Made by a program: the position numbers and the translations under genes
Part shown: piece by piece, positions 19,182 through 20,975 of the stretch
How the letters are laid out: the number at the start of each line of letters is the position of its first letter
Numbering within the stretch: the first letter of the stretch is position 1
Assembly (NCBI RefSeq): GCF_947493125.1
Contig: NZ_CANLQB010000006.1
Coordinates: forward strand, 1-64,000
Length of the DNA: 64,000 bases
Direction of reading: 5' to 3'
From: an uncultured Roseobacter sp.
GTDB taxonomy: Bacteria > Pseudomonadota > Alphaproteobacteria > Rhodobacterales > Rhodobacteraceae
Notes under the pieces: model-generated
Databases searched by the model: none
What the model was told of the DNA's origin: nothing
What the model saw: only the letters and a program-made list of their open reading frames with translations

Positions 19182-20837
19182 ATGGCCGCCTATCAATACG
19201 TCTATCACATGTCCGGCGTCTCCAAGACCTACCCGGGCGGCAAGAAGTGTTTCGAGAACATTCACCTGAACTTCCTGCCCGGCGTGAAGATCGGTGTCGT
19301 CGGCGTGAACGGCGCCGGTAAATCCACGCTGATGAAGATCATGGCCGGTCTCGACACCGAGTTTCAGGGCGAGGCCTGGTCCGCCGAGGGCGCCACCGTC
19401 GGCTACTTGCCGCAGGAGCCGAAACTCGACCCGAACCTCACCGTGCGCGAGAACGTGATGCTCGCCGTCGCCGACAAGAAGGCCATCCTCGACCGCTACA
19501 ACGAGCTTGCCATGAATTACTCCGACGAGACCGCGGATGAGATGGCCAGGCTGCAAGACGACATCGACGCCCAGAACCTCTGGGATCTGGATGCCCAGAT
19601 CGACGTCTCCATGGAGGCGCTGCGCTGCCCGCCCGACGACGCCGACGTGACCAAGCTCTCGGGCGGTGAAGCCCGGCGCGTCGCGCTCTGCAAGCTCCTG
19701 CTCGAAGCGCCCGACATGCTGCTGCTCGACGAGCCCACCAACCACCTCGACGCCGAAACCATCGCCTGGCTGCAACAGCACCTCATCGACTACAAGGGCA
19801 CGATCCTGATCGTCACCCACGACCGCTATTTCCTCGACGACATCACCGGCTGGATCCTTGAACTCGACCGCGGCCGCGGCATCCCCTACGAGGGCAACTA
19901 CTCCGCCTGGCTCGAACAGAAGGCCAAGCGCCTCGAGCAGGAAGCGCGCGAGGACAAGTCCCGCCAGAAGACCCTCGAACGCGAGCTCGAATGGATGCGC
20001 CAGGGCGCCAAGGCCCGGCAGGCCAAGTCCAAGGCCCGGATCAACGCCTACAACGAACTCGCCGACCAATCCGAGCGCGAAAAGCTCGCCCGCGCGCAGA
20101 TCGTCATCCCCACCGGCCAGCGCCTCGGCTCCAAGGTGATCGACGTCACCGGTCTGCAAAAGGCCATGGGCGACAAGCTCCTGGTCGAAGGCCTCGACTT
20201 CTCCCTGCCCCCCGGTGGCATCGTCGGCGTGATCGGCCCCAACGGTGCGGGCAAATCCACGCTCTTCAAGATGCTCACCGGGCAGGAACAGCCCGACGCC
20301 GGCGCCATCGAGATCGGCGACACGGTCGATCTGGCCTACGTCGACCAGTCCCGCGACGACCTCGGCGCCGATGAGACCGTCTGGGAGGCCATCTCAGGCG
20401 GCGCCGAACTCATCCAGCTGGGCGACGCCGAGGTGAACTCCCGCGCCTATTGCTCGTCCTTCAACTTCAAGGGCGGCGATCAGCAGAAGAAGGTGGGCCT
20501 GCTCTCAGGCGGCGAGCGCAACCGCGTGCACATGGCGCGCCTTTTGAAATCCGGTGGCAACGTGCTGCTGCTCGACGAGCCCACCAACGACCTCGACGTC
20601 GAAACCCTGCGCGCCCTGGAGGACGCACTCGTCGATTTCGCCGGCTGCGCCGTGGTCATCAGCCACGACCGGTTCTTCCTCGACCGCATCTGCACCCACA
20701 TCCTCGCCTTCGAAGGCGAAGCCCACGTGGAATGGTTCGAAGGCAACTTCGAGGACTACGAGGAGGACAAGAAGCGGAGATTGGGAGCAGATGCCCTCGA
20801 ACCCAAACGACTAAAACACAAAAAATTCGTTCGGTAG
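19182..20837 (+). CDS. ettA: Energy-dependent translational throttle protein (ABC-F ATPase)
   Basis: 551 residues, full length for EttA, from ATG 19182 ([15 protein letters not shown]). Two ABC domains are visible: Walker [10 protein letters not shown], signature [11 protein letters not shown] and Walker [12 protein letters not shown] in the first; [21 protein letters not shown] and [11 protein letters not shown] in the second. The ribosome-facing arm lies within the first domain and the P-site tRNA interaction linker between them. EttA binds the ribosomal E site and gates the first elongation step according to ATP/ADP. The last 13 codons (rare CGA, CTA and AAA-rich) differ in codon use from the rest of the gene and lie in a palindrome. 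A second copy of the C-terminal coding sequence follows at 20937-20975. Confidence 0.96.
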
Positions 20838-20870
20838 AACGGAGTTTTTGTGTTTACGTTTGGGTTCGAG
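20796..20870. terminator. 75-bp palindrome containing the ettA stop; bidirectional terminator
   Basis: Outer arms CTCGAACCCAAACG (20796-20809) and CGTTTGGGTTCGAG (20857-20870) are perfect. Inner arms AAACACAAAAA (20814-20824) and TTTTTGTGTTT (20845-20855) are perfect, and the tip GTTC-GGTA-GAAC holds the stop codon. After the tip there is a T-run on both strands, so it can terminate transcription in both directions. Unusually, the left arm encodes the last 13 residues of EttA. Confidence 0.8.
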
Positions 20871-20936
20871 GAGTGAGCGGCAGCGGGTGCGAAGCACCTG
20901 CGTGCGCACCCGTTGCAATTTGAGCGCTTTTATAAG

Positions 20937-20975
20937 GAGCCCAAGCGGTTGAAGCACAAAAAGTTTGTGCGTTGA
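20937..20975 (+). repeat. Second, displaced copy of the ettA 3' coding end
   Basis: This stretch encodes [12 protein letters not shown] and a stop, the same 12 residues that end EttA at 20799-20837. It uses different codons: nine of about 35 bases differ, nearly all at third positions. Its codons (AAG, CGG, TTG) are GC-preferred like the body of ettA, whereas the functional end uses AT-rich codons. The simplest reading is that this was the original gene end, displaced by a DNA insertion that brought a replacement end. Confidence 0.75.

Follow-up and report, generated by a model that had tools for sequence, protein, structure and literature searches.

A small palindromic element that probably recodes the 3' end of ettA in a Roseobacter genome, and the repeat family to which it belongs

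The window analyzed here, a stretch of 64,000 nucleotides from an uncultured Roseobacter sp., carries an ettA gene whose 3' end is present twice. We suggest that positions 20795-20936 are, on balance, probably a small mobile palindromic element inserted just 5' of the last 12 ettA codons (Table 1). The element would have entered the gene immediately upstream of these codons, the left arm of its first hairpin (hairpin 1) supplying a synonymous C-terminus and the old end being pushed 138 bp downstream. The EttA protein would be unchanged, since the left arm encodes the same C-terminus in other codons. Integration of this kind would leave the order new end, element, old end, as happens with phages that enter the ends of genes. 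We infer that the element moves as one unit, spreads horizontally and is non-autonomous; it would be moved by an enzyme acting from elsewhere, and homologous recombination through the body of ettA perhaps aids its spread. ettA is one site among many: beyond what an earlier note on this DNA had described, we found a second hairpin that is conserved (hairpin 2), a repeat family of wide occurrence, and further sites at lepA and at the ends of other genes.

Table 1. Features of the ettA 3' region in the window
Feature	Coordinates	Strand	Basis and remarks
ettA (energy-dependent translational throttle protein)	19182..20837	+	NCBIfam TIGR03719, 939 bits; open reading frame; now closes with last codons that the element would carry
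Hairpin 1 left arm, recoded ettA 3' end with TAG	20795..20837	+	Sequence; hairpin fold
Hairpin 1 right arm, imperfect inverted copy of the ettA end	20838..20871	+	Inverted repeats; covariation with the left arm over ten units
Hairpin 2, conserved part of the repeat family	20871..20917	+	Model R1, 58.7 bits (this copy is itself in the model); covariation
Element tail	20918..20936	+	Right boundary approximate; G235/G097 similarity drops about 100 nt past the stop
Putative displaced original ettA 3' end, 12 codons and TGA	20937..20975	+	37 of 39 bases as in the working end of L017, 36 in L022, 36 in L118
Probable leftover of the old ettA 3' flank, with congener-type short hairpin 1	20976..21000	+	L114 alignment

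The 12 terminal EttA codons and the stop lie at 20799-20837 and again at 20937-20975, which bears out the duplication that the earlier note had reported. The two copies share 27 of 39 bases, all codon differences between them are synonymous, and they close with TAG (working copy) and TGA (downstream copy). A diversity-generating retroelement was considered as the source of the differences and rejected, as these are synonymous throughout and not specific to adenine, falling at C, T and G positions too. The contrast in codon use that had been drawn between the working end and the body of the gene holds for base composition (GC3 is 0.43 over the last 14 working codons versus 0.88 over the preceding 180 codons) but not for its boundary, the atypical codons AGA TTG GGA GCA beginning about 17 nt upstream of the palindrome start. 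We take the downstream copy to be the original end, probably still in its former surroundings, because it is closer to the working ends of relatives and because similarity to the congener locus L114 continues 25 nt past its stop. When compared with the working ends of 103 other ettA loci, the downstream end is best matched by L017 (37/39 bases), L022 (36/39) and the congener L118 (36/39), and the L114 alignment, which spans the displaced end and these 25 nt, has 78% identity over 64 nt. The working end, set against 103 other loci, has its best match in the new end of L169, a unit in another genus (35/39), followed by two congeners without the unit, L123 (34/39) and L115 (33/39). The earlier note would have given up its reading if all relatives had both copies at one place, and this is not so: of the 17 congeners with a complete ettA end, none has a second copy (at least 7 of 11 residues, about 18 kb downstream). 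When the ettA end peptide was compared with the stretches downstream of 80 other hairpin-2 loci, no match equalled the one in the window.

The working end was correctly placed in a palindrome, which runs from 20795 to 20871 and comprises 77 nt (75 bp had been claimed) with 33 pairs. Compared with dinucleotide shuffles, of which none in 200 is as good, the fold of the 180-nt stretch lies 8.3 sd lower. The idea that this palindrome doubles as a bidirectional terminator fared less well. A terminator scan found stems of 5-7 pairs at the palindrome apex on both strands, with T-runs after them that are the palindrome arm itself, and in the window neither the full palindrome nor hairpin 2 is followed by a T-run. 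The region has 3 terminator-like sites versus 1.2 (sd 1.2) in shuffles. With only the short apex stems scoring, an intrinsic (Rho-independent) terminator was rejected. Searched against Rfam with E up to 10, positions 20600-21800 gave only sub-threshold matches to animal microRNA and similar models, and visual inspection of the two ends of hairpin 2 showed no integron attC boxes (RYYYAAC / GTTRRRY). The proposal that CACAAAAA marks the crossover point found no support, nor anything against it.

The arrangement recurs at ettA in other genera, which supports the earlier reading that a palindromic insertion of very small size brought in its own ettA end and so kept the frame open to a proper stop. 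We surveyed 394 Rhodobacteraceae genomes, mostly one per genus. The exact ettA end pattern matched in 296 of the 394, and seven genomes had two matches on the same strand (G000, G053, G235, G261, G144, G143 and G126). The distance from end to end is 138 bp in G000, 140 bp in G053, 143 bp in G235, 144 bp in G261 and 147 bp in G144. Two more genomes, G202 (143 bp) and G210 (142 bp), were found through hairpin 2, the exact pattern missing one or both of their copies, and in Cognatishimia activa (locus L016) the copies lie 143 bp apart. The window and seven further genomes (140-147 bp), each with two readable copies, share a common layout: the recoded end as left arm, an inverted partial copy as right arm, hairpin 2, the tail, and the old end. 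G097 also carries a long-type unit, and its second ettA copy is at most a decayed or doubtful remnant, not beyond the null. Kept separate along with G097 were G143 (712-bp spacing), G126 (two ends on different contigs), G340 (one match per strand) and G202, whose ettA is interrupted farther upstream. The stop of the new ends is TAG in 8 of 9 cases versus 18 of 97 other ettA loci (p 4e-5, for a pattern noticed before testing). In L016 an ordinary intrinsic terminator stands behind the displaced ettA end; the same scan places an intrinsic terminator within 110 nt of the ettA stop at 22 of 79 named-relative loci. The palindrome is therefore not the ancestral ettA terminator in Cognatishimia, which was the alternative that the earlier note had set against its own reading.

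Some loci depart from the common layout in their own ways. In G143 (L171), about 700 bp and an ORF (membrane protein-like by eye) separate the working end from the duplicate, which is the 3' part of ettA, roughly 50 codons; the arrangement resembles a larger insertion of similar logic. In G202 (L310, reversed, 15541-18470), an insertion-sequence-like stretch interrupts ettA near residue 493, with the 3' part of the gene and the hairpin unit about 1.2 kb beyond the interruption. In G124 (L311), ettA is three codons longer than usual and runs into hairpin 1, as though its stop had shifted.

Hairpin 2 is the part that unites the repeat family. It is a 47-position structure in which 94% of cells pair (13 sequences, hand-picked by motif). 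Across these 13 sequences, 17 cells have changes on both sides versus 5.1 in shuffles (0/500); the number of pairs with a double change, 4 versus 2.7 in shuffles (46/500), is less telling. At E 0.01 the hairpin 2 model matches in 76 of the 394 family genomes, an upper figure, since six of these genomes supplied sequences for the model and some matches (in G021, G160, G170 and G295) belong to another palindromic repeat. The largest copy numbers are nine in G053 and seven each in G303 and G350. Within the genus, 13 of 19 genomes match at E 0.1, and across the class, at E 1e-4 and with strict filters, 2 of 289 genomes do, both of them Rhodobacteraceae. Sites were inspected at 30 loci and for 64 matches in 60 stretches, the remainder being mostly weaker; they comprise the ends of ettA, lepA, gatB and rplP, the bchY-bchZ gap (in at least eight congeners) and places elsewhere, gene names being assigned from one example each. 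In the window's own genome one hairpin 2 lies at lepA (31 bits), and the displaced end there does not score above 13 of the 70 nulls. Another palindromic repeat, seen at L228, L232, L240, L247, L249, L261 and L265, has inverted ends of the AGCGTGTCGC kind and a centre similar to hairpin 2.

We placed the ettA units on a quick tree of the ettA body with 105 rows (G097 included, G202 left out because of the interruption in its ettA, and L009 dropped as a near-copy of L115). The eight unit rows require 8 changes, of which 8 are forced by starred branches, and a single clade of unit rows is rejected (p-AU 2.35e-5). When G202 is included, the nine unit rows require 8 changes, 7 of them forced (p-AU 0.000255). 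In the tree without G202, shuffled labels average 7.8 changes, and thus the scatter of the unit equals chance. Such a scattered distribution may reflect repeated gain or many losses. Transfer between lineages is favoured by the likeness of G235 and G097, which are 95% identical over 85 non-coding bases (short gapped identities of this kind are inflated, 300 random pairs giving a median of 0.69 and a maximum of 0.85) versus 81-82% in the ettA bodies, similarity falling to 56% from about 100 nt past the stop.

These patterns leave a real, if lesser, possibility that homologous recombination alone is at work. The tandem would have arisen once or a few times, and a donor ettA with its unit, arriving for instance through gene transfer agents or transformation, would have replaced the end of the recipient gene, crossing over within the body of ettA on one side and within the displaced end on the other. 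Scattered units and near-identical non-coding parts in two genera speak for this explanation, and the window locus does look like a hybrid, with a foreign-type new unit upstream of a congener-type old end. It also accommodates the match of new ends to host residues: within one host, new and displaced ends mostly agree at the variable L/V/I and H/Y/F residues. That agreement counts against the mobile element, being odd for foreign DNA unless donors were similar or the end was copied from the host; it would suggest that similar hosts recombined with one another or that the host end was copied, and is the seed of the guide-like reading discussed below. Recombination alone, however, leaves the origin of the tandem, the repetition at lepA and the dispersed copies unexplained.

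Hairpin 1 differs from site to site. A hairpin abuts hairpin 2 at 110 of 115 matches, but this DNA is rich in stable hairpins: a single one of -10 kcal/mol or better occurs at 100 of the 115 (median -16.4) and also at 257 of 450 control sites (median -11.8) taken from the same loci. Position and covariation are therefore more informative on hairpin 1 than its stability. Its left arm enters ettA by 43 nt in G000, G235, G053, G097 and G210, 42 nt in G144 and 39 nt in G202, and a short type reaching 0-10 nt was found in G003, G013, G016, G313, G159, G126 and G228. At lepA the reach is 18-22 nt at 17 of 23 loci, 12 of these at 22 nt; because folds of up to 95 nt are allowed, the gene-overlap search gives too large a value for some rows (e.g., L191, L224, L229 and L231). 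Double-change cells in lepA hairpin 1 number 19 versus 6.1 in shuffles (0/500), and are confined to 4 pairs (3.0 in shuffles). At ettA, a compensatory change is seen at 15 of 33 predicted pairs over ten units (a count without shuffle control), including positions where the amino acids differ, as between KFV and KFT. Comparison of the copies thus shows that the right arm of the predicted hairpin 1 follows the local gene end, and under the mobile-element reading selection or templated correction would keep it complementary to the end of the host gene. In G016 (L288), the layout is seen again at an unrelated gene, of the TIGR02466 family, where the coding end VSFNYSWV and its stop form the left arm of a hairpin 1 with 21 pairs.

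Displaced ends were sought by scoring the gene-end peptide on the 140 nt past hairpin 2 against the corresponding stretches of unrelated loci, after dropping loci with no recognizable gene end or less than 100 nt downstream. The displaced end scored above every null at 6 of 12 ettA loci (window included) and 6 of 22 lepA loci; the other 6 ettA loci, G097 among them, and 16 lepA loci had none above every null, nor had any of 30 loci at other genes.

The main rival to a mobile element, which we hold to be rather doubtful, is that hairpins 1 and 2 form an mRNA 3'-end structure at some genes, that end and structure were duplicated in tandem, and that the first copy was later replaced by recombination with diverged relatives. 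Units are stacked at ettA in G053 and G210, where the displaced ends bear hairpins of their own, as a duplication of end and structure would have it, and the covariation of hairpin 1 at lepA and its compensatory changes at ettA are what a selected RNA hairpin would show. The occurrence of several sites in translation genes (ettA, lepA, gatB and rplP) is also in its favour. Yet no second copy of the unit was seen past the displaced end in the window, L016, G261 or G235, and what follows in L016 is the ordinary terminator. Moreover, hairpin 2 is sporadic at each gene and multicopy in single genomes, and the window's genome lacks it at bchY/bchZ, two genes that overlap there by one base step.

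Going further than the mobile element that we prefer, one may imagine a target-matching mini-element, in which hairpin 2 would be the common handle for an enzyme, while the right arm of hairpin 1, being complementary to the end of the gene targeted, would act as a guide. Copying of the guide on insertion would recode the last codons synonymously, build the hairpin and displace the old end, each lineage homing to its own gene (ettA, lepA or others). We consider this unlikely.

Searches for an enzyme, a carrier and a source covered several kinds of DNA. The Y1 transposase (PF01797) was found in one of 20 genomes searched, G144, itself a carrier, and is absent from G000, G053, G303, G350, G210 and G329; a REP/RAYT repeat, with which this transposase is associated, was rejected on that count. 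Exact patterns of the ettA end and of hairpin 2 had no match in viral contigs, nor had the 97-nt element by blastn against plasmids and phages. Records with a match to the ettA end peptide, at up to 75% identity, number 3 for phages and 57 for plasmids, and the annotated ones among the matches listed are ettA or ABC-protein genes. The layout itself is of the Campbell type, with a new synonymous 3' end, the element, and the displaced old end, and there is no integrase gene inside the element, only about 100 bp lying between the two ends. A tyrosine recombinase of 201 aa with the catalytic domain only (PF00589) lies about 2.5 kb upstream of ettA, at 16031-16636. The DNA around it is AT-rich (about 11-19 kb) up to the start of ettA, and near it is a sub-threshold match to phage Gp10_C (17868-18389).

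On the other side of the gene, the genus is hypervariable between ettA and cutA, the latter lying 1.0-2.9 kb past ettA in 11 of 17 congeners. The gap of 1-3 kb (20838-22256 in the window, and L109-L125) differs in nearly every congener, often with one defence-like gene beginning near the ettA stop. The Pfam matches of the 17 first genes past ettA, window included, are TIR, DUF3800 (twice), DUF4145, DUF7946/7947, PIN, RelA/SpoT and HTH+M78, with HEPN just below the cut-off; 8 of the 17 have no match. The window ORFs 3' of the displaced end, 21079-21525 (-) and 21854-22237 (+), have no Pfam match, and the latter is 90% conserved in the congener L109. That the repeated end is the attachment-site remnant of a larger integrated element with its middle lost, as the earlier note had allowed, is very unlikely: the phage-integrase gene and the hypervariable interval speak for it, but the spacing of 138-147 bp in eight genomes makes the short form the rule, and the integrase lies upstream of ettA and has no relative by tblastn in 105 other ettA loci.

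If the mobile-element reading is right, an exceptionally small element repairs the conserved gene that it enters, and one stretch of DNA is protein code and hairpin arm at once. Many natural replicates are on offer in the repeat family (ettA, lepA, bchY/bchZ, rplP and gatB) for studying movement without a recognized transposase, and these also bear on why gene ends, several of them in translation genes, serve as sites. Titles and abstract openings in the literature revealed no mention of these repeats or of integration at ettA. The nearest precedents lie elsewhere. Phage-type integration into the 3' ends of coding genes is known from e14 and phage 21 at icd, where, as here, the incoming DNA completes the frame with a 3' end that differs by synonymous changes, and the original end is displaced; the element at ettA differs in measuring about 140 bp, in having no gene of its own that we could see, and in a new end that is half of a long hairpin. 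Rickettsia palindromic elements are likewise palindromic repeats within reading frames, but they add residues to the protein, whereas the insert here swaps the gene end synonymously. In fungal mitochondria, elements with a C-terminal coding end of foreign origin also replace the end of a gene and leave the old end downstream; they include endonuclease genes, in contrast to the element here, in which none was seen. Finally, REP/BIME repeats with RAYT transposases are described as short, palindromic, dispersed repeats with two hairpins (PMC2817692), features that the present family shares. Compared with REP/BIME as so described, with the Y1 transposase in one of 20 genomes here, the element at ettA stands apart in sitting inside coding ends and displacing them.
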